A DNA stretch of 64,000 nucleotides from Geovibrio ferrireducens (GTDB taxonomy: Bacteria; Chrysiogenota; Deferribacteres; Deferribacterales; Geovibrionaceae): NCBI RefSeq assembly GCF_026226615.1, contig NZ_JAJAPB010000004.1, positions 62,001 to 126,000 on the forward strand, in the 5' to 3' direction. Below the pieces are notes generated by a model, which was given only the letters and a program-made list of their open reading frames with translations, was not told the DNA's origin and did not search any database. Position numbers and translations under genes: made by a program. This document shows, piece after piece, positions 19,176 through 44,686 of the stretch (position 1 is its first letter; each line of letters opens with the position of its first letter).

Positions 19176-20318
19176 TTGAAAAGCAACACGGACGCAACCG
19201 GTTCCAGATATTCAGAAAATATGACTGACACTTTTACGGCGGCTTTGGCGGATGAATATTTCCGTCTCTTCAGCCCTGCGTTCTGTATTCTGGATAAAAA
19301 GGGGCACATCCTCCGTGCAAGCCGCAGCTTCCGCGAAATCTTCGCTCAGGAAGCAGATCCGCTTTCATTCGACAATATCAGCAGTTTCCTCTCACGGAAA
19401 AGCGCTGCTGTCCTCAAGGCACTCCTCAAAGAACCTGAAAAAGGCAAAGCAAAGCTGAAAGCCTTTGACACTGAGGGCAGAAAGCTGCACCTAAAAGTAC
19501 GCATTTCAGCGCCGGAGAACAGCACCGGGATATTCTTTCTGTTCTTTGAGGATGTCACCAAAACAAAAGAGCTGAAAAAGAAACAGAAAAAGCAGGAAAA
19601 GCTTCTTATACAGCAGTCAAAAATGGCTGCAATGGGTGAAATGCTGGGTGTTATAGCCCACCAGTGGAAGCAGCCGCTGAACAACCTTGCCATCATAGCC
19701 CAGACCATAGGCGATGACTTTGACCACGGAGACCTCGATTCGGCAGCCGTTGAGGAACACATAGACTCAATCAACTCACAGATTCTGTTTATGAGCACGA
19801 CAGTGGATGATTTCAGACGTTTCTTCATCCCGCAGAAGACACCCAGCAGGTTCAGTGTGATGCCCGCTGTTGAAGAGATAGTTTCTCTGATCAATCCTCA
19901 GCTCAAAGCCTGCAATATAGATGTCAGGCTCAGTGCGGGAGAAAACTGCGGGGAGATACTGGGCTACAGAAACGAGTTTAAGCAGGTTATCCTCAACCTC
20001 GTGGTGAACGCCAAGGATGCTATAATCCACAGACGGGAAGAGGATGAGAGATTCAGAACCGGACAGGGAATAATCGAAATAAACATTTCATGCACAGATA
20101 AAAACTGCACCCTTAGCGTAAAGGACAACGGCATGGGGATAAGCCCTGATGCGATGAAAAAACTCTTCAAACCCTATTTCACCACAAAAAATGATAACGG
20201 AACAGGCATAGGCCTCTACCTTTCAAAAACCATAATCGAAAACAAAATGCACGGCAGGCTGAGTGTCGGCAGTTCAGCCTCCGGCGCTTCGTTCACAATA
20301 ATACTCCCCTTTGTTTAG
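19176..20318 (+). CDS. PAS-domain sensor histidine kinase (soluble)
   Basis: 380 residues from a TTG with GGAG upstream; the next Met would be at residue 16. PAS domain at about 25-130 (FCILDKKGHILRASRSF), then a charged helix and HisKA with the H-box AHQWKQPLNN (H162), then HATPase: N-box NLVVNAKDAI, G1 DNGMGI, G2 GTGIGLYLSKTI. All catalytic boxes are intact. No membrane segment, so it senses a cytoplasmic signal. No response regulator is adjacent. The AHQWxQPLN H-box is the HisKA subtype common in epsilon-, delta-proteobacteria and Deferribacterota. Confidence 0.9.
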   Translation: MKSNTDATGSRYSENMTDTFTAALADEYFRLFSPAFCILDKKGHILRASRSFREIFAQEADPLSFDNISSFLSRKSAAVLKALLKEPEKGKAKLKAFDTEGRKLHLKVRISAPENSTGIFFLFFEDVTKTKELKKKQKKQEKLLIQQSKMAAMGEMLGVIAHQWKQPLNNLAIIAQTIGDDFDHGDLDSAAVEEHIDSINSQILFMSTTVDDFRRFFIPQKTPSRFSVMPAVEEIVSLINPQLKACNIDVRLSAGENCGEILGYRNEFKQVILNLVVNAKDAIIHRREEDERFRTGQGIIEINISCTDKNCTLSVKDNGMGISPDAMKKLFKPYFTTKNDNGTGIGLYLSKTIIENKMHGRLSVGSSASGASFTIILPFV

Positions 20319-34382: not shown

Positions 34383-34982
34383 CTATATTTTCTGCGGCAG
34401 CAATGACTTTTTACTGAATATCTCTGTAACTGTACCCACATGCCTTATATCGGGCTCACCCACACTGATAGTCTCATAGGCATTATTTTCAGGCACAAGA
34501 AGACCTTCTCCGTCTTTCAGCAAATATTTGCGGATAAACGGCCGCCCTTCAGCGCCTATAAAGAGAACATAGCTTCCGTTTCTGAGTTTTCCGCTGTCTT
34601 TGATCCATAAAGCGATATCCCCTTCCGATATTACAGGGTGCATAGCATCGCAGACCACTATATGGGCATATCTGTCCGGATTGTTCAGAGTAAACGGAGT
34701 CTTAATGATTTCTGCTGCGGGGAGGAAAATGTCATACTCAGATTTCTGGAAGAGAGGCTGAAACATTTCGCCCGTACCGTGATAAATCCAGTCCGCCGAT
34801 ACGCCGTACTCATCCATAAGGAGGCGCAGATTGCTCTCACTGATGAATCTGTCGCCCGATTCCCAGTTCTGGACGGATCTGTAAGATGAGTAAATTCTCT
34901 CGGCGAACTCCCTCTGGGTGAGTCCCAGAAAAGTCCTTAGCTGCTTAATTCTTTTTCCGATTTCCTTGTTTTTTCGACACAT
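34383..34982 (-). CDS. XRE/cI-like regulator with S24-like domain lacking the catalytic serine
   Basis: 199 residues. HTH_3 at about 8-65 (IGKRIKQLRTFLGLTQREFAERIY, SVQNWESG), the architecture of phage cI/LexA-type repressors. The C-terminal domain (~105-195) keeps the S24 fold pattern, but the motif normally GDSMxP reads CDAMHP: Ala113 replaces the nucleophilic Ser, while a Lys (K152) is present. It should therefore bind DNA and dimerise but not self-cleave. An operator-like palindrome lies upstream. Transcribed alone, next to two related regulators and the packaging module. Confidence 0.88.
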   Translation of the reverse strand: MCRKNKEIGKRIKQLRTFLGLTQREFAERIYSSYRSVQNWESGDRFISESNLRLLMDEYGVSADWIYHGTGEMFQPLFQKSEYDIFLPAAEIIKTPFTLNNPDRYAHIVVCDAMHPVISEGDIALWIKDSGKLRNGSYVLFIGAEGRPFIRKYLLKDGEGLLVPENNAYETISVGEPDIRHVGTVTEIFSKKSLLPQKI

Positions 34983-34998
34983 TTATTCGTTTTATTCC

Positions 34999-35033
34999 TT
35001 GACACCCTACACTCATGGGTGTACCTTATACAC
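34999..35033. promoter_or_regulatory. Operator-like palindromes and promoters upstream of the XRE gene
   Basis: Overlapping inverted repeats: ACACCC-N9-GGGTGT (35002-35022) and GTGTA-N5-TACAC (35019-35033). On the minus strand an extended -10 (TGtgTATAAG, 35034-35025) lies inside the second palindrome, about 45 bp before the XRE ATG. On the plus strand TTGACA (34999-35004) is a possible rightward -35. The layout fits autoregulation by the repressor. The 500-bp gap to 35527 otherwise holds only the tRNA. Confidence 0.55.
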
Positions 35034-35223
35034 ATTAACACCATAGCAAAAATATATATTATTGCAAAATGAAAACTTTTACAAGAGAATAGCTTGCGGT
35101 ATGAGAAAAGGCAATAGTCTGTTCACATTTCAGGAATCGTAAGGCAGAAAAAAACCGGAAAACGGTTGTGTTAATTTTTTGAGACGGTAAGTTTTTCAGC
35201 TTCAGCAACAACACCGGAAAAAA

Positions 35224-35297
35224 TCGGGATGGGGGGATTTGAACCCCCGACCCCTGGTTCCCGAAACCAGTACGCTACCAAGCTGCGCTACATCCCG
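35224..35297 (-). tRNA. tRNA-Pro (CGG)
   Basis: 74 nt on the minus strand. Acceptor CGGGATG/CATCCCG, anticodon stem CTGGT/ACCAG with loop TTCGGGA (anticodon CGG, reads CCG), T-arm GGGGG-TTCAAAT-CCCCC. CCA is not encoded; the 3' end runs into a T-rich tract that can act as terminator. It sits between regulators 34383 and 35527. tRNA genes are frequent phage attachment sites, but I see no flanking direct repeat or integrase. Confidence 0.95.
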
Positions 35298-35491
35298 TTG
35301 AGTGATAACTTAGCACATTTTCTCTTTCTTTTGCAAGAATATATACGAAGAAAAGACCATGTGTAAATATATATTTGATATCGGCAGGACAAACAGAAAA
35401 CTTTTTTTGTTTATCTGATATCTTCATCCCTGTACTTTTAACCTAATTGACGCTATGTGGATGCAATCGACTGCCTATAACAACTAGTATA

Positions 35492-35520
35492 TTTACACAA
35501 AAAATATTATAAGGTAATGT
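35492..35520 (+). promoter_or_regulatory. Promoter giving a predicted leaderless mRNA for the dual-HTH regulator
   Basis: TTTACA (35492-35497), 17-bp spacer, TAATGT (35515-35520). A start site 7 nt after the -10 would fall on the A of the ATG at 35527. A short AAGG at 35511-35514 lies 12 nt before the ATG and inside the spacer, so it would not be transcribed from this promoter. CTATAACAA (35475-35483), also found in the capsid-module control region, lies just upstream. Confidence 0.5.
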
Positions 35521-35526
35521 TAGGCT

Positions 35527-36336
35527 ATGATTGGAGAAAAACTTAGAAGACTAATTAAACGTAAAGGAATCAAGCAGGTTGAGGTATGCAGAGCCGTGGG
35601 ACTTTCACCCTCCAGACTTTCCAACTACCTCAGCGGCAGCAGAGAGCCCGATCTTGAAACTCTTTCAAAAATTGCACGCTTTCTCGAAGTTAAGCTTGAT
35701 TATTTCGCCTTTGGCGACTCCATCAAGAACACCAAGGAAATAGGCGAGCGAATCAAAAAAATCCGTGAAATGAGAGGACTTACCAAAAAAGATCTCTCTG
35801 ATTCCACCGGGTATGACCTCACCTTCTTTGCCGCTCTTGAATTAGGGCACGGTGAATTTGAAAGAGAAACTATCGAAACCATAGCACAGATACTTAAGTA
35901 CGGTGCTGATGAGCTCATAGGAAGCTGCGAACAGAATACGGAAGCCCTTTCCGCTGTTATGGAGAATGAGGTTGTGGATTACTTCCCCGCTTCTCCGGAA
36001 ACACAGTACCACCTGGACGACATAGCATCCGCCAGGACAGAGGCGCTTAAAACACCTTTCTGGACAGTGGTTACAGACGGCAGGTTTGCTCCGAAAATCA
36101 ACGAGAATGAGCTTGTTTTCGTTGAAAAGATAACGGGCTTTCCCGCTGACAGGGAATCAGTATTTTTTGCTTCGGAAGGCACGCTGCGGCTTATGCGCTG
36201 TTTTGAGTACCCTGATTCGGTGCTCCTTGCGCCTGAGTCAAAGGCCGGCGAACCCATAAGCCTTAATAAAAATGAGGAAATGAAACCCGGCAGCCGCTGC
36301 TACAAAATTCACTGGATTGCCAAAAAACCCGACTGA
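35527..36336 (+). CDS. Dual-HTH XRE regulator with degenerate S24-like domain
   Basis: 269 residues. Two tandem HTH_3 domains at about 1-60 (IGEKLRRLIKRKGIKQVEVCRAVG, SRLSNYLSG) and 70-130 (IGERIKKIREMRGLTKKDLSDSTG), then an S24-like C-terminal domain whose nucleophile motif reads TDGRFAP (183-189), without Ser, and whose Lys position is Arg-like (RLMR). The first HTH is clearly paralogous to the gene at 36435. It faces away from the cI-like gene across the tRNA. Two DNA-binding modules in one chain suggest binding to paired sites. Confidence 0.85.
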   Translation: MIGEKLRRLIKRKGIKQVEVCRAVGLSPSRLSNYLSGSREPDLETLSKIARFLEVKLDYFAFGDSIKNTKEIGERIKKIREMRGLTKKDLSDSTGYDLTFFAALELGHGEFERETIETIAQILKYGADELIGSCEQNTEALSAVMENEVVDYFPASPETQYHLDDIASARTEALKTPFWTVVTDGRFAPKINENELVFVEKITGFPADRESVFFASEGTLRLMRCFEYPDSVLLAPESKAGEPISLNKNEEMKPGSRCYKIHWIAKKPD

Positions 36337-36340
36337 TAAT

Positions 36341-36367
36341 AAGGAGCCTTTTAGGCTCCTTTTTTTG
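36341..36367 (+). terminator. Intrinsic terminator of the dual-HTH gene
   Basis: Perfect 9-bp stem aaggagcct/aggctcctt with a 3-nt loop followed by TTTTTT, 5 bp beyond the stop codon. Confidence 0.92.
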
Positions 36368-36399
36368 CATACATTTCATTCACGCTAAGAGAATCTTTA

Positions 36400-36428
36400 T
36401 TGACAAACAGTCTATCCTGAGCCATAAT
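36400..36428 (+). promoter_or_regulatory. Promoter giving a predicted leaderless mRNA for the second XRE gene
   Basis: TTGACA (36400-36405), 17-bp spacer, CATAAT (36423-36428). A start 7 nt after the -10 is exactly the A of the ATG at 36435. No ribosome-binding site is seen before the ATG (ccagc). This is the same geometry as at 35492-35527. Confidence 0.65.
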
Positions 36429-36434
36429 TCCAGC

Positions 36435-36956
36435 ATGATTGGGAAAAGACTGAGACAACTGTTAGCCTCACACAACATGACGCAAGCCGAGCTTTGCAGG
36501 AAACTGGGCATCTCTCCGGGAAATATGTCCAACTTTATAAACGACCAGAGGAATCCCAGCCTTGAGACTCTCTCACGCATTGCCGGGTATTTCTCTGTTA
36601 ATATTGATTCTTTTGTGTCAGAAGCACCTGTTGCCCGCTCAGGACCCAGACTTTTATCATCTCTGAGTGAAAATACTCTGAACACTGCGGGCAGATTCTG
36701 GGTAAAGATTGACACTGATGCTTTTTCCTCTGCATTCCGCAGAGAAACGCTTATATTCATTGATAAAGAAGCGGAAATAAATCACAGAGACTGCACACTG
36801 GTCATAAACAGCGGCAGACCGGAGATTTACAGATTTCTGGTGAAAAACAGAGGGGCTATACTAATACCGTTCAGAAAAACCGAAATGCCCCTTGAAATAA
36901 AAAAACACAGCAAAACAACGCTGTACAAGATACTTTTCTCGGCAGTATCTCCCTAG
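36435..36956 (+). CDS. XRE regulator with degenerate S24-like domain, paralogue of the dual-HTH gene
   Basis: 173 residues. One HTH_3 (1-60: IGKRLRQLLASHNMTQAELCRKLG, GNMSNFIND, PSLETLSRIAGYF) and a compact C-terminal S24-like domain. The expected nucleophile motif reads TDAFSS (94-99), with Ala where Ser should be, and the Lys position reads YRF. It is therefore not expected to self-cleave. The N-terminus aligns over ~60 residues with the 35527 product. The stop overlaps the convergent PilZ gene by 4 bp. Confidence 0.82.
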   Translation: MIGKRLRQLLASHNMTQAELCRKLGISPGNMSNFINDQRNPSLETLSRIAGYFSVNIDSFVSEAPVARSGPRLLSSLSENTLNTAGRFWVKIDTDAFSSAFRRETLIFIDKEAEINHRDCTLVINSGRPEIYRFLVKNRGAILIPFRKTEMPLEIKKHSKTTLYKILFSAVSP

Positions 36957-37777: not shown

Positions 37778-38893
37778 TTATTTCAGCGGTATTCCGAATC
37801 TCCTTGCCGCTTCGGCGAAATCCACATCCATTCCGGCCTGTGCCGCTTCCCGTATTGTTGCCCAGTCGGCATATTCCTTCTCTTCAAAAACAAATGAAGG
37901 AAGCTTGCACCTGCTGCCGAAATTAAGTTCCGCAATCCATCTGACAAGGGTTGAGCTGACTGTGTCGGCCAGTGATGCGGCTGTTTTTGCCGCTTTTATG
38001 CCGAATGTTTTTGAATGTTCCCTGGCGAGGGCATACGAAGCCCCGGAGCCTGTATCGCTTGTGAGTATCTCCCCTGTTACAGCCTTGGAGATTTCGGCAT
38101 TGCAGACTTCAATCAGCTTCGCGAAGTCATCAGAGCTCCCCCTGCTTTCAAGCACCTGAACGCTGTCCACATTGGCAAGCGCCACAGCCGCATCATTCTG
38201 GATTCCGCTCAGTGAATCAGCCAGAATCTGAGCCCTGCGCCGCGTTTCCTCCCCTCCGTCCGAGCTGAACATGGCAAGAACAGTGGGTACGCCGAATTTC
38301 TCAGCCACTGTGAGCCAGAAACGGAAACCCGCTTTCTTGAACATCCACGGCCAGTAGCATTTGGAAAGAACCGGGCTGCCGTAAGGATTTTCATTTCTGG
38401 GCATGTGTCTGTGAATGATGAACTTGTACTGCTCATCCAATGACACGCTCCTGCCGCCGTCCGTCATAAAAAGATTTCCTTCGGAATCAAAGGCGAACCT
38501 TGCCGGGTTACGGTTCAGAAGTCTGTCCGCCAGCCAGTGTGCTCCGTCCTTTTTCCACACTATTTCAGTGACAGAGAAACCGTACTCCACTGCGGAAAGC
38601 ATCTCCTCCAGTTCCTGAAGGAAATTAGGCATGGCTTTGAGATTTTTCCTCACAAATTCCGCCGCTTTGGAGGCCTCTTTAGTGGAATCCGCCGGAATTA
38701 TGCTCCATTCATATGCCAGAACACCGTGCCTCAGCTGCTCCAGCTTCGCAGATATATGCGCATCGGTGAGCATTTCATCAAAAACCGACAGTCTCAGACC
38801 GTTCTTTGATAAAATTATGTCCGGATTCGGCATAAAATTTAAAAATGCTGAAAACTCCGCTGCCGCAGAAATATTTTTTGTAAGATTATTCAT
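37778..38893 (-). CDS. Phage portal protein (DUF935, Mu gp29-like)
   Basis: 371 residues. Matches DUF935/Mu gp29 portal proteins: PDIILSKNGLRLSVFDEML, RHGVLAYEWSIIPAD, MPNFLQELEEMLSAVEYGFSVTEIVW, HRHMPRNENPYGSPVLSKCYWPWMFK, GFRFWLTVAEKFGVPTVLA and AREHSKTFGIKAA. The dodecameric portal is the DNA entry/exit channel of the head. Shorter than Mu gp29 (~510), so the C-terminal extension is missing. It directly follows terL, the normal order, but the next virion gene (protease) is 27 kb away. Confidence 0.85.
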   Translation of the reverse strand: MNNLTKNISAAAEFSAFLNFMPNPDIILSKNGLRLSVFDEMLTDAHISAKLEQLRHGVLAYEWSIIPADSTKEASKAAEFVRKNLKAMPNFLQELEEMLSAVEYGFSVTEIVWKKDGAHWLADRLLNRNPARFAFDSEGNLFMTDGGRSVSLDEQYKFIIHRHMPRNENPYGSPVLSKCYWPWMFKKAGFRFWLTVAEKFGVPTVLAMFSSDGGEETRRRAQILADSLSGIQNDAAVALANVDSVQVLESRGSSDDFAKLIEVCNAEISKAVTGEILTSDTGSGASYALAREHSKTFGIKAAKTAASLADTVSSTLVRWIAELNFGSRCKLPSFVFEEKEYADWATIREAAQAGMDVDFAEAARRFGIPLK

Positions 38894-38906
38894 ATGTTTC
38901 CCCCCT

Positions 38907-40304
38907 TTAATATCCTCTGAATATTGAACCCGCCTGTCTCAGTGTGCCGGAGTGCGCTCCTTCGGGCATAGCCCTTGCCCCCCCTTCGCTCAATGCCTGA
39001 GTCATAGCATCAACCATATCGTCATGCCTGCCGAAGGGAAAGGACGCTGCCTCCTCAACCAGCTCCGCAGAGAAAGCCTTATCCTCCGGCAGGTAAACAT
39101 TGCCCGCCTCAAGCAGAGGCTGAACTGCGTAAGCCCTCGAAATTTTAGAACCCTTCGGCTCCACAGCGATCATCCCCTGAACCTCTTTTCTCAGTGCTGA
39201 GAGAACTGCCGAACCGTTCGCCTTGTCCTCAACATACTTTGCCTTAGCCTGCGGCCAGCGGGCGGTGAGGTTTTTTACCGCACGGACAGTGGCGGAAAAA
39301 TCCATCCTGTCCCGCACCATGTCTGCAAGATACCTGCATGAGCCTTTCACAGCCCAGACCTGCCCCACCACATAGTCCGCACCTTCGCCCCCTTTGAAGC
39401 TCATGTCCCATGACTGAAACCAGATGTCCGGATCTGCCGGAAGAGTTCTGTAGTAACGCCACCACTCACGCCGGAGCACCGTTCCCGAATCCGGTGACGG
39501 TTCCTGCATGTAAAGAGCATTCCACACCCTTGAGCCCACGGACTGCTTTATGCGCTCCAAAGCATGCTCACCGTATTTTTCAGGCCACAGCGGTTCCCCC
39601 GCCTTCCGGAACGGTTCATCCGACTCAGCAACCGCAGGCAGCTTCAGTATCTTCCATTCTTCCGGATATTCCGTCAGAAGCCTGCCCGCCAGATCATCCT
39701 CATGCCATCTGGTCTGAACAAGAATTATCCTTCCGTTTTTCTCAAGCCGTGTGAACAGGGTGGATCTGTACCAATCCCAGAGTTTGTCCCTGTATACCGC
39801 GGAGGAAGCCTGCTCTGCGTTTTTCACAGGGTCATCAATGATAATCAGATGCCCCCCCTGACCGGTGATCGACCCTCCGGCTCCTGCGGCAAGGTAACGT
39901 CCGCCATCTGCCAGTTCCCATCTTGAGGCGGATCGTACACCCGGCTTTACCCCTCTGCCGCCGAAAACATTCACAAACAGTCCGGATGCAGCCAGATCCC
40001 GCACTCTTCTGCCGAAGCTTTCCGCCAGATCTGCGCTGTATGAGCAGGCTATGACATTAAGTCCGGGGTTGCGCCCCATGAACCATGCGGGGAAACGGAC
40101 TGAGGTTATTTCGCTCTTGCCGTGCCGTGGCGGCATCATTACCACCAGCCTGTCCGTTTCGCCTTTTTCCACAAGCTCAAGCTCACGGGCTAGCAGCCTG
40201 TGATGCCAGTTCGGCATAAAATCCCTGAAACTCAGCATGCAGTAGGAAATCAGTGAGCCTTTCGCTTTCCGGCAGGCCTCACTTCTCAAATCCGTCCGCA
40301 TCAT
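38907..40304 (-). CDS. terL: Terminase large subunit
   Basis: 465 residues. ATPase domain with Walker A in MMPPRHGKSE (~58-65) and Walker B LIIIDD (153-158), coupling motif region QTRWHEDDL; nuclease domain with the RNase H-type acidic residues in SWDMSFK (D300), KYVEDKANG (E359/D360) and GRHDDMVDA (D428/D429). All residues needed to pump and cut DNA appear intact, so the enzyme looks functional. It overlaps terS by 26 bp and lies 13 bp before the portal gene. Confidence 0.95.
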   Translation of the reverse strand: MMRTDLRSEACRKAKGSLISYCMLSFRDFMPNWHHRLLARELELVEKGETDRLVVMMPPRHGKSEITSVRFPAWFMGRNPGLNVIACSYSADLAESFGRRVRDLAASGLFVNVFGGRGVKPGVRSASRWELADGGRYLAAGAGGSITGQGGHLIIIDDPVKNAEQASSAVYRDKLWDWYRSTLFTRLEKNGRIILVQTRWHEDDLAGRLLTEYPEEWKILKLPAVAESDEPFRKAGEPLWPEKYGEHALERIKQSVGSRVWNALYMQEPSPDSGTVLRREWWRYYRTLPADPDIWFQSWDMSFKGGEGADYVVGQVWAVKGSCRYLADMVRDRMDFSATVRAVKNLTARWPQAKAKYVEDKANGSAVLSALRKEVQGMIAVEPKGSKISRAYAVQPLLEAGNVYLPEDKAFSAELVEEAASFPFGRHDDMVDAMTQALSEGGARAMPEGAHSGTLRQAGSIFRGY

Positions 40305-40698
40305 CCCCCATTACCCTTTCAGCGTCTTCCTTTGTGCATTCGTACATATCATCAAGGGCACTGTTCACCTGCACCTTGCCGATGATGTCGTCCGGTTTTG
40401 TGAGCCCCACATCCCTGTAGACCTTAAGCATTTTGGAGTGTGTCTCCAGATCCCGGACGTTTTTGCACTCTTCAAGCATGCTGTCCGCCTTTTCCACACC
40501 CTTAAGGGCAACATCCTGAACGGCCTTAAGGATTCTGATACGCTTTTTGCGCCCTGCTTCCAGACTGTTTTCCCATTTTTCTTTCTTTATGCGTTTTCTG
40601 ATTTCATCCGCACTGCATCCGAACAGACCTGCGAGGCTGTCCGGTTCAGTGTTTCCGGTTTCATATTCTTCTCTGATTTTTACCCAGTCGAACCCCAT
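40279..40698 (-). CDS. Terminase small subunit-like protein
   Basis: 139 residues. N-terminal winged/HTH-like segment (DSLAGLFGCSADEIRKRIKKEKW) as in DNA-recognising small terminases, then a charged helical oligomerisation region (ILKAVQDVALKGVEKADSML, RDLETHSKMLKVY). It precedes terL and overlaps it, as in nearly all tailed phages. In a gene transfer agent, this subunit sets the loss of packaging specificity. GGTGGGGAG abuts the ATG. Confidence 0.7.
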   Translation of the reverse strand: MGFDWVKIREEYETGNTEPDSLAGLFGCSADEIRKRIKKEKWENSLEAGRKKRIRILKAVQDVALKGVEKADSMLEECKNVRDLETHSKMLKVYRDVGLTKPDDIIGKVQVNSALDDMYECTKEDAERVMGDDADGFEK

Positions 40699-40787: not shown

Positions 40788-42617
40788 TTAAGGAATGATT
40801 ATTCTGAAACGGGTTCCCTTGGCCGAAGGAACAGCCTCCACCCTGCCGTTGAAATTTTTCTCGATCAGTTTGCTGGAAATATAAAGCCCCATACCCTTTT
40901 TAAGGTTCGGAGTGCTCAGCGGATCTTCCAGGGCAGAAACGCATGCCTCGCGGAATTTGCCCGTACTGTCCTCAATTGCTATAACGCAGCCGCCGTTCTC
41001 CTCACCCATGCCGAGGGTGATTGTACCCACGCCTACGCCGTTTGTTTCAACCAGTTCGCGGGAAACCATGAGAATATTAAGCAGCACCTGCTTGAGTACC
41101 GAGGCTGAGCCTGTGACCTGTCTTTTTGATGTATCACTGTAGAAAACGAAGCCCACACCGTCTTTTTCATAATAAGTCGAAACAAAAGAGTGCACCTCAT
41201 CAAGCAGAGGCATTACCTCGAATGAATCCTCCCCGCTTTTATCAGTGGCTACAAAGCTCAGAAACCTGTCCACGGATTCCATCATAAGCTTTATCTGGTT
41301 TCTGCATGTGTTTATGCATTCTGCGAGGTATTTTTCATCCTCTATGCCGGATGAAATTTCCTCCTTGATGTTCTGCATGTTGATATGCACAAGGCTCAGA
41401 GGCTCACGCCAGTGGTGTGAGACAGAGGCCACCATCTCGCCTATGGAGTACAGCTTCATCTGCTGGATCATAAACTCCTTCTGTGTTTCAAGCCTTTCAG
41501 CCTCCTCCTCTGATCTCCTTTTCAGGTCTTCCTTGCAGCTTTCAAGCCTGAGAAGCACACCGTCAGTTTCCTCAAGGTGTCTGTTATACTCAAGTATAAG
41601 CTCCTTAAGCTCTGCCACATAACCGCTGTTTTCCCTGAGACTGATCTTTTTGGATTCCCCGAAGAGGCGCATAACCTCAGAATAGGGGATCTCAAACCTG
41701 CGCCGGAAAATTCCGAATACGTAGTACATGAACAGACCGGAGAAAAGGAGTGTCATAGCCGCAAGCATCATTGAGCCCTGCTTCATTCTGTTTATGCCTT
41801 CCGGGTTAAGAACGGCCTTGATCCCTATCTTCTCCCACGGGAAAAGCTGCTCCGCATCGCACCTGAATGTTTTATAAACAGAATCCTCCATAAAAAAAGT
41901 CTGCTCCTCGTGCACGTCAGCGAACACGGCAAAATCATCCGGGCTGAGCTCTGCTCCGTAAACCGCCGCAGAATCCACCGCCGATGTTCCCAGAGAGTAC
42001 ACGCCTATGTCTGTAAAGAGACTGCTTTCTCCGTGTATATTCTTCATACGGGAGGCTATTTCATCACCGAAGGAATACTCTGTCATAACTGCGGCGTATT
42101 TTCCCTGCTCAGGCGACCACTCAAAGCTCATTATCTCCGAAGCTTTTTTGGAGTACGAGTATCTTATGCGTGTCACTCCGCCGGGGTTCTCCCTTGCCGT
42201 GTCAAAATCCTTTGCAGCCGGTGTGAGAGCCCAGTCATCGGAGGCTCCCGCACTCTTTCCGCTGTAGAGCATGCGTCCGTCCATGCCGAAAATCATTATG
42301 GCGTAAGGCCTCTTTGTTGAGGCTGAATAGCCGTCCGCCAGTATGGATGCCTCTCTGCCGTCCGCAGGAAAGCTGTGGAGCACATCGCGCACATGGTGTC
42401 TGGTTACATCTGAAACGGCGTTAAGCCTTATGCTGAAAGTGTCTGCGGCTGATTTGACCGTTTCTTCCAGAAGCCCCGCCAGCCCTTTGTAAGTGTCCTC
42501 AGTTTTGGCCACGGCAAGGCGGACACTCAGATAATGATCCGCAATGACAAGGCAGACAAGGAAAAAGAAAAGAAAAATAAAGCTGTGAACCAGAAGTTTT
42601 TTCAGCGGTATCTTCAT
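40788..42617 (-). CDS. Membrane sensor histidine kinase (active-type H-box, degenerate N-box)
   Basis: 609 residues. TM at ~7-27 and ~283-303 flank a ~255-residue periplasmic sensor (dCache-like), then a short cytoplasmic coiled coil and HisKA with H-box SVSHHWREPLSL (H401) and a HATPase. The N-box reads LNILMVSREL, lacking the second Asn of NLxxNAxDA, and G1 reads EDSTGK; G2 GMGLYIS is kept. It may therefore be a weak kinase. The start overlaps the stop of the preceding kinase-like gene by 4 bp (ATGA), so the two proteins are made together. Confidence 0.85.
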   Translation of the reverse strand: MKIPLKKLLVHSFIFLFFFLVCLVIADHYLSVRLAVAKTEDTYKGLAGLLEETVKSAADTFSIRLNAVSDVTRHHVRDVLHSFPADGREASILADGYSASTKRPYAIMIFGMDGRMLYSGKSAGASDDWALTPAAKDFDTARENPGGVTRIRYSYSKKASEIMSFEWSPEQGKYAAVMTEYSFGDEIASRMKNIHGESSLFTDIGVYSLGTSAVDSAAVYGAELSPDDFAVFADVHEEQTFFMEDSVYKTFRCDAEQLFPWEKIGIKAVLNPEGINRMKQGSMMLAAMTLLFSGLFMYYVFGIFRRRFEIPYSEVMRLFGESKKISLRENSGYVAELKELILEYNRHLEETDGVLLRLESCKEDLKRRSEEEAERLETQKEFMIQQMKLYSIGEMVASVSHHWREPLSLVHINMQNIKEEISSGIEDEKYLAECINTCRNQIKLMMESVDRFLSFVATDKSGEDSFEVMPLLDEVHSFVSTYYEKDGVGFVFYSDTSKRQVTGSASVLKQVLLNILMVSRELVETNGVGVGTITLGMGEENGGCVIAIEDSTGKFREACVSALEDPLSTPNLKKGMGLYISSKLIEKNFNGRVEAVPSAKGTRFRIIIP

Positions 42618-44686
42618 TTCGGCACACTCTTCTCAAGCCCGCAGGCAGCAGTGTTTTTATCCAGATAAATATCTATGTTCAGCCCTTCGGCAGAGCTTGT
42701 GATTTCTGTTCTGCCCTTCATGACCGTGTTAAAAAGCTCCACAGCCATGTAGAGATTAAAATACTCCATGCTGCCTTTTGAATCTGACAGATAGGGGTCA
42801 TTGACCGCCCTGATCTCATCTGAGCACATGCCGCCGCTGTTGTCGCTCACGTTGATGCGCACAGCCTCGCCTTCATCGTACATAACAACTGAGATGAACG
42901 GTATGAAGGCGGAATCCCCCGCTTTCTTTTCATCAAGCAGCCTCTTGCTGTTGTGGAAAACACTCAGCACAGCAAGCTTGAACTCGGCAGGGTAGCCGCA
43001 TATGGTAAAACCGAAGCTGGGACATTCCGGAACGCACTCCGGATAACCCGCGCCGCAGCATCTGTCCAGATTTTTCATCACATCCACCTTCACCGGCTCA
43101 TCATATCCCTGAAGGCGGCATGTGAAGCTTAAATGGATGTCTCCCGAAAGCATATGCGGGGCGACCATACGCATGGTGTCTTCCAGAGTCTGGCGGAGAT
43201 CGAAAAGCTTTTTTTCCAGCGAAGGTCTGAAAAAGTCACGCAAACCCTCTATGGTCGAGGACATATAAAGCACCTGCTCCATACACTCCGAGGCTATTTT
43301 CTCCAGCTTTTCCCTGTTCTCCTCAAAGTTTCCGGTCATGGCGGATATATTTTCCACATACTGCCCCAGAACCTTAAGGGGAAGCTGCCAGAGATAAGCC
43401 ACTGAGTGGGTCATTTCGCCCATTGTGGCTAGCATTGACTGACGGATTATAAGCTGTTCGTTCGCCTTTCTTGTGGAAACCTCAGCCTTAATTCTCTGCT
43501 CCAGTTCCTCATTAAATTTCTCAGCATAGGACAGAAGCTCCTGCTGCCTGTCCAGATGACCGTTATAAAGCTCGGCCAGATGCGCCAGATCCTTTTCACC
43601 GGACAGAATGCTTTTCTCCGTTATTTTCTCTGAGTTTTTCACCTTGGCTATCATATTGCCGAAGGGGATTACAAAGCGGGAGTTCAGCCGCCTGTAAAAG
43701 AGGACAAGGGCCGCAACTGCCACAACCACGGAGAAAAGCTTAATGAAAAAGCTTAAAAGCCCGTAGCGGCGCTCATCAGTGGTGTCAAAAATTATCCGGT
43801 AGACTATCCGGTGATCCAGATCCTTCAGTTCTGCCGCGGAATCGGGGACACGGGCGGCCACATAGTAGCTTTTGCTTGTTCCGGTGAGCAGGCTGCCGGA
43901 TGTTTTCTCTGTCATCCGGCCGTTTTTTATGGTTTCAAGAACAATGTCCGGGTCAGTATCCTTCTCCGGGTTGTCTGAGCTTATATTGAAAATGAGGTTG
44001 CTGCCCCCTTCCCTGTTATAAAAAACCAGAATGGCATCAACTGACTTTATGTACTCGGACAGGCCGACTATTTTCTCCAGCCTTTCACGCACCACTTTGA
44101 GGTCCGCCAGAAAAAGCGCGGTCTGGAGATATATGTCCCGCTCTTTTATATAAGACATGGTGTAGGCGCGCAGCACTCTGCCTGAGCGCTCGTACACGGG
44201 ATAGTCCAGCAGAACGCCCCCTTTCTCCTTAGCCCTGCGCAGGGTTTCCTTGGCGTTGGGGAACTTGCTTATATCAAGCCCCAGTTCGGTGGGGTACGTG
44301 GTGGTGAAAATAACCCCCTCACCTGTGAGCATGGCTATCTCTATCTCGGTGTTAAGCTCTTCCTCGTGCTCCTGTTTACGGTTCATAAGATATTCGTAGG
44401 AGGGTATGCCGTATTCGGCTATGAAATCGTGCAGTTTCTGATGATCCTGCACCATATGAAGACGCACATGGATATTTGCAGGGGACTGGAACTCCTTGTA
44501 GTAGCCGATATTTTCATCGACCATCCGCACAGCCTCCGCCGTTATGCTGCGGACGTTCAGCTCAAAGTTCCTGTAGTTTAAAAAATAATTAACGAGAATC
44601 AGAGATACTGCCGCAAGCACAAGAATCAGGCAGTTTGCAGTCAAAAGCTTGCGGAGGCTTATCCCCTTCTGTTTACCAGCAGACAT
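42614..44686 (-). CDS. Pseudo-histidine kinase sensor with Cys cluster
   Basis: 690 residues. TM at ~12-35 and ~310-332 flank a ~275-residue periplasmic sensor domain; a cytoplasmic helix leads to a HisKA-like segment. The H-box reads HSVAYLWQLPL: Tyr431 (TAT) stands where AHQWxQPL has the phospho-accepting His. N-box (SVFHNSKRL) and G2 box (SMEYFNLY) are also degraded, while G1 keeps DNSGG. Residues 523-563 add six cysteines (CC at 543-544, then C551, C555, C563) just before the N-box, a possible metal or redox site. Coupled by ATGA to the next kinase; probably a sensory partner. Confidence 0.85.
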   Translation of the reverse strand: MSAGKQKGISLRKLLTANCLILVLAAVSLILVNYFLNYRNFELNVRSITAEAVRMVDENIGYYKEFQSPANIHVRLHMVQDHQKLHDFIAEYGIPSYEYLMNRKQEHEEELNTEIEIAMLTGEGVIFTTTYPTELGLDISKFPNAKETLRRAKEKGGVLLDYPVYERSGRVLRAYTMSYIKERDIYLQTALFLADLKVVRERLEKIVGLSEYIKSVDAILVFYNREGGSNLIFNISSDNPEKDTDPDIVLETIKNGRMTEKTSGSLLTGTSKSYYVAARVPDSAAELKDLDHRIVYRIIFDTTDERRYGLLSFFIKLFSVVVAVAALVLFYRRLNSRFVIPFGNMIAKVKNSEKITEKSILSGEKDLAHLAELYNGHLDRQQELLSYAEKFNEELEQRIKAEVSTRKANEQLIIRQSMLATMGEMTHSVAYLWQLPLKVLGQYVENISAMTGNFEENREKLEKIASECMEQVLYMSSTIEGLRDFFRPSLEKKLFDLRQTLEDTMRMVAPHMLSGDIHLSFTCRLQGYDEPVKVDVMKNLDRCCGAGYPECVPECPSFGFTICGYPAEFKLAVLSVFHNSKRLLDEKKAGDSAFIPFISVVMYDEGEAVRINVSDNSGGMCSDEIRAVNDPYLSDSKGSMEYFNLYMAVELFNTVMKGRTEITSSAEGLNIDIYLDKNTAACGLEKSVPK

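Follow-up and report, generated by a model that had tools for sequence, protein, structure and literature searches.

A lineage-fixed pseudo-histidine kinase coupled to a second degenerate kinase in Geovibrio ferrireducens

Our analysis of a 64,000-nucleotide stretch of the Geovibrio ferrireducens genome (hereafter the window) indicated that the protein HK1 is a true pseudo-histidine kinase whose losses, judged from its sequence and those of its relatives, are real, conserved and coherent. The gene for HK1 overlaps that of a second kinase-like protein, HK2, and with moderate confidence we read the pair as an orphan membrane receptor, in which HK1 would be a DivL-type pseudo-histidine kinase and HK2 its PhyT/ChpT-like, His-bearing partner. 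HK1 appears to represent an independent DivL-style switch from His to Tyr, and a living relative that still carries the His makes the order of the losses readable. The coordinates of both proteins and of their main features are given in Table 1.

Table 1. Features of the HK1-HK2 gene pair, in positions of the window
Feature	Coordinates	Strand	Remarks
HK1: membrane sensor, DHp and degenerate CA; pseudo-histidine kinase	42614..44686	-	690 aa
HK1 sensor and TM region	43742..44599	-	residues 30-315; slow-evolving, dN 0.06-0.10
HK1 DHp domain	43217..43471	-	residues 406-490; dN 0.05-0.07, like active paralogues
Tyr431 codon TAT, replacing the phospho-acceptor His	43394..43396	-	
Cys insert, beta2-beta3 hairpin of HK1 CA	42998..43120	-	C523, C543, C544, C551, C555, C563; conserved in the genus
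N579, catalytic N-box Asn of HK1, kept	42950..42952	-	
HK1 G1 box DNSGG	42830..42844	-	Asp and second Gly present; first Gly replaced by Ser
HK1 G2 box, gone	42752..42763	-	YFNL vs family GIGL
ATGA stop/start overlap of HK1 and HK2	42614..42617	-	present in all 3 congeners
HK2: sensor and DHp (His401 present), followed by a CA without N-box Asn, G1 Gly and F-box, though with G2	40788..42617	-	
HK2 His401 (SHHWREPL)	41415..41417	-	conserved in 4/4 genomes
HK2 Val518 at the catalytic N-box Asn position	41064..41066	-	Val in the genus, Gln in the sister genus; Asn in 43/43 others

The HK1 frame is uninterrupted from its ATG. As the initial annotation had reported, the H-box reads AYLWQLPL with Tyr431 at the phospho-acceptor site, and the box cited there for comparison, in the open reading frame at 19176, is indeed AHQWKQPL. 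The same annotation held both the N-box and the G2 box to be degraded; this stood for G2, where both Gly are gone, but in the N-box only the first Asn has changed (to Ser), N579 being kept. The losses thus comprise the His, the first G1 Gly, the TTK of the F-box/lid and both G2 Gly, with the G1 Asp (D615) retained. In a sample of 43 other HQW-type kinases from the phylum, 43/43 have the His, the N-box Asn, the Asp of G1, the Thr of the lid and the first Gly of G2, and 41-43 have the other scored G1, lid Lys and G2 residues; Tyr431 occupies the His position in 3/3 congeners. The suggestion that kinase chemistry was lost coherently, rather than through one error, is strongly supported, as is the stability of the loss.

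The CA domain of HK1 is barely recognised by Pfam (14.5 bits, cut-off 26.4). Its predicted fold is intact: pLDDT in the CA core of the AF2 model is mostly 87-96, and the model matched PDB structures at Z 17-18 over about 150 residues. With the family alignment, these results place HK1 in the histidine kinase superfamily (a DHp helical pair followed by a HATPase_c-type fold) and outside the active histidine kinases, since the phospho-acceptor His is absent and the G1/TTK/G2 set incomplete. HK1 does show the conserved non-His acceptor site on a retained HK fold, which is one of the marks of DivL-type pseudo-histidine kinases. Because N579 and D615 are kept, weak nucleotide binding or trans-phosphorylation may still be possible. 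No fold was assigned to the sensor, where the model is of low confidence at residues 110-194 and kinase matches dominated the match lists. Sensors of the same type (residues 1-350) are also found within the order on proteins with other outputs, one being a HisKA_3-like kinase, others having a PICSSCKKIR-type motif at their end.

Of 60 related genomes searched, only those of two congeners (identities of 84% and 79%) and of one sister genus (39%) yielded a full-length HK1 orthologue. Orthology follows from a gene order that the congeners and the sister genus have in common between the oxidoreductase gene upstream and the packaging genes downstream, and from a DHp-CA tree in which the four HK1 proteins group at 98/93 and the four HK2 proteins at 100/100. 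Conservation in orthologues had been named as the check on Tyr431 and the cysteines, and both congeners are identical to HK1 at Tyr431 and at all six Cys. The sister-genus protein is, by its motifs, a complete kinase, with the His (IAHQWKKPL), the Asn, DNGGG, TTK and GIGL. The initial annotation had taken a His in orthologues as a sign of recent mutation or error; none occurs in the congeners, and the one in the sister genus indicates ancestry. Tyr is therefore derived and lineage-fixed, considering that the syntenic orthologue and 43/43 relatives have His and 3/3 congeners have Tyr. A sequencing error or recent mutation at Tyr431 was rejected, since three genomes separated by dS above 1 all have this residue.

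The tree also bears on the origin of the switch. HK1 does not belong to the DivL orthologue group; its closest relative is the His-bearing syntenic orthologue within the HQW kinases of Deferribacterota, which argues that Tyr arose independently of DivL (DivL itself was left out of the tree). The stem branch of the genus measures 1.8 in HK1, compared with 0.75 for the sister-genus row. As for HK2, the N-box Asn is missing in both genera, so that its loss is likely older than the losses in HK1. From these residue patterns, the likely order is that the ATP site of HK2 was lost first and the His and lid of HK1 afterwards.

Selection has not acted evenly along HK1. Overall dN/dS is about 0.08 in the single congener pair with unsaturated dS, which indicates a functional gene; several comparisons have dS close to saturation, which makes absolute ratios rough, and regions were compared within the same genes and the same genomes. 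Specifically, dN in the CA core after the insert is 0.23-0.34, as against 0.05-0.19 in eight active paralogues, and 50/108 core positions are variable compared with 198/862 in the same eight paralogues pooled (Fisher p = 1e-6). Variation in the core is thus twice that of the family, against tight constraint on the sensor and DHp. The relaxed core and the long stem branch are what would be expected of a decaying, non-functional gene (a pseudogene in progress). Nonetheless, we consider this very improbable given the low overall dN/dS, a frame that is open in three species at dS above 1, the strong constraint on sensor and DHp, the fixed Cys and the preserved coupling to HK2.

The initial annotation described the ATGA coupling of HK1 to the next gene, which we confirmed and found to be kept across the genus, and proposed that HK1 gates the neighbouring kinase. 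The latter fails as written, as HK2 itself lacks the N-box Asn, the G1 glycines (replaced by Thr/Lys or Thr/Ser) and the F-box. HK2 is probably not a stand-alone kinase, to judge by these motifs, and neither HK1 nor HK2 looks able to autophosphorylate alone. The structure model of HK2 predicts an intact fold, and its CA is not relaxed (dN 0.10-0.13), which suggests that HK2 is kept for some function. With no complete active site in either protein of this genus, the pair probably signals by contact or by phosphate relay, and not in the way of ordinary kinases. No receiver domain is encoded in the 64-kb window, and 78 are encoded elsewhere in the genome. The signalling repertoire of the host is large, with about 25 HQW-type kinases alongside those 78 receiver domains in 2.97 Mb.

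It is conceivable that the two proteins form an obligate complementary heterodimer, in which the CA of HK1 would phosphorylate His401 of HK2 in trans, so that two half-kinases make up one kinase. Their residues are partly complementary (Asn, Asp and the second G1 Gly in HK1; His and G2 in HK2), the ATGA overlap favours 1:1 synthesis, and the sister genus combines a complete HK1 with an HK2 that has the His and no Asn. However, both G2 Gly and the TTK of the F-box/lid are gone from the CA of HK1, and the core evolves at twice the rate seen in active paralogues when a catalytic CA should be constrained. With the G2 box and lid missing and the domain relaxed, we regard the half-kinase arrangement as unlikely.

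The systems closest to the pair are pseudokinases and phosphotransfer proteins. DivL of Caulobacter crescentus has Tyr550 and no kinase or phosphatase activity, and binds or senses DivK~P (PMC4211667); like HK1, it has Tyr at the phospho-acceptor position and keeps the HK fold, and the HK1 model matched 4q20 at Z 17.2 and rmsd 3.9 over 171 residues. DivL works in published tests without kinase activity, a parallel that we propose for HK1. The two proteins differ in that HK1 belongs to the HQW-type lineage, has a tandem degenerate partner and a Cys insert, and has lost more of the ATP site (G2, F-box). The Y550H variant of DivL is reported to recover autophosphorylation when stimulated by DivK~P. 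The fixation of Tyr in the genus might also be taken to mean that Tyr431 is itself phosphorylated, in a tyrosine kinase-like use of the HK fold. We consider this extremely improbable, considering that the ATP site of HK1 is eroded and that DivL, the precedent, works without phosphorylation of its own Tyr (PMC4211667; PMC9491836, citing Reisinger 2007).

HK2 shares with PhyT/PhyP, ChpT and Spo0B a retained acceptor His (4/4 genomes) and lost ATPase motifs, and in this respect resembles that class although its G2 box is kept, a feature that, with its coupling to a pseudokinase, sets it apart from them. PhyT is membrane-anchored and His-bearing, has a degenerate ATPase domain and relays phosphate (PMC5898713), and for HK2, too, a membrane anchor and a periplasmic sensor are predicted. 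ChpT is folded like a kinase, keeps the acceptor His and cannot autophosphorylate (PMC3433190). A pseudokinase acting through a paralogue is known from C. glutamicum, where ChrS works through HrrS (PMC9491836). RetS-GacS resembles the HK1-HK2 pair in its proposed action via DHp contact, and RetS structures were among the matches listed for both models; unlike RetS-GacS, the pair has no hybrid receivers, and the partner is degenerate too.

Taken with these precedents, the orphan-receptor reading would run as follows. HK1 descends from an active HQW-type kinase, which could at that stage have phosphorylated itself and HK2, and HK2 was probably already without the N-box Asn, though still with its His, before HK1 changed. 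The split of the genus from its sister genus was followed in HK1 by the loss of the acceptor His, of the ATP lid/F-box and of G2; its periplasmic sensor has stayed under constraint, and DHp helices and Cys insert have been retained. In its present form, HK1 may, like DivL and RetS, use DHp contacts to convey the state of its sensor, and perhaps that of the insert. The His of HK2 may serve in phosphotransfer or as a phosphatase site and, as with PhyT and ChpT, be supplied by other kinases or response regulators. The residue losses, their conservation and likely order and the shift in constraint are shown by the sequences, whereas the source feeding this His and a role for the Cys are inferred. 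The two proteins may form a heteromer; we assume a heterodimer from coupling and adjacency only. Against the receptor-pair reading, the HK1 and HK2 genes are separated in the sister genus by a gene for an RRM protein, so that close coupling is confined to this genus.

The six Cys that the initial annotation placed beside the ATP-binding fold of HK1 were confirmed, and are flanked by the beta2 strand and the N-box helix. We rejected the idea that the cluster is a novelty of the pseudokinase, since it is present in active paralogues of the same genomes and in the His-bearing orthologue. The latter carries four Cys of the cluster, which therefore predates the loss of HK1 kinase activity. Active HQW-family kinases have a hairpin of about 32 residues, frequently with the pattern CxC-x(n)-C-x(n)-C, and two Cys are invariant across 14 active HQW kinases (examples picked for their Cys). 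HQW-type kinases with a long Cys insert in Deferribacterota, Nitrospirota, Nitrospinota and Myxococcales share the DHp/CA lineage and insert position of HK1 and, unlike HK1, have His, Asn, G1, F-box and G2 intact. When 75 HQW-family sequences were surveyed (mostly from other phyla, with few Deferribacterota), the hairpin had 12-15 residues and 0-1 Cys in most, and 7/9 long hairpins had 2-4 Cys (Deferribacteraceae, Nitrospirota, Nitrospinota, Myxococcales). When HK1 is taken together with four paralogues that bear Cys, 1/21 of the Cys columns are variable compared with 82/171 other insert columns (p = 6e-5), which indicates that the Cys are under selection in the active kinases too.

From such sequence patterns, it would be natural to read the Cys of HQW kinases as a metal site, a disulfide or a redox switch. 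Long CA hairpins rich in Cys and His (such as CHAHGR...C) occur in HQW kinases of Nitrospirota, Nitrospinota and Myxococcales, and suggest a wider metal-site-like insert across the family. A search of the available literature returned nothing relevant on a Cys cluster in the HK catalytic domain or on HQW H-boxes; many kinases of anaerobes that are ordinary in other respects carry such a selectively conserved cluster in this domain, and it is apparently undescribed.

The metal or redox sensing that the initial annotation inferred for HK1 gains indirect support from the selective conservation of the Cys and from an insert that is better conserved than the ATPase core. It is possible, and we put it forward tentatively, that the insert is a metal or redox sensor (a thiolate site) and HK1 a Cys-based sensor subunit with the CA merely a scaffold. 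This would be consistent with the invariance of 6/6 HK1 Cys in the genus, with the low variation of Cys columns and with the Cys-rich long inserts of other lineages, where short hairpins mostly have 0-1. The HK1 insert is also slower than the ATPase core, most active paralogues showing the reverse (fast insert, slow core): it is less variable than theirs (12/47 vs 112/276 positions in the pooled paralogue inserts, a borderline difference at p = 0.05) and the core more so. On the other hand, the insert is of low confidence in the AF2 model, the six HK1 Cys by themselves are not significant (p = 0.15), and Cys generally changes slowly as a residue. A fuller version, in which the ATPase domain of HK1 has turned into a Cys-based metal/redox sensing subunit and forms with its His-bearing, ATP-dead partner a two-part receptor with neither subunit a kinase, seems to us rather improbable.

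Directly downstream of the kinase pair lies a stand-alone Mu-type terS-terL-portal module (37778-40698, minus strand). Regulation of this module by the pair is unsupported; the module occurs without these kinases in the six genomes examined from two further genera. The Mu-type portal is found in 12/12 genomes of the family and almost nowhere else in the order, and terL is under strong purifying selection (dN/dS 0.04). HK97 capsid is absent in 12/12 family genomes, and Mu head genes occur in only a few of them, apparently belonging to separate prophages. It is possible that the module belongs to a gene transfer agent with an unrecognised capsid, or that it is a domesticated packaging module; a search of the available literature found nothing relevant on a gene transfer agent in Deferribacterota. 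Three Xre/S24-type repressor genes (34383-36956) adjoin the packaging module, and both the congeners and the sister genus have them in an identical order.
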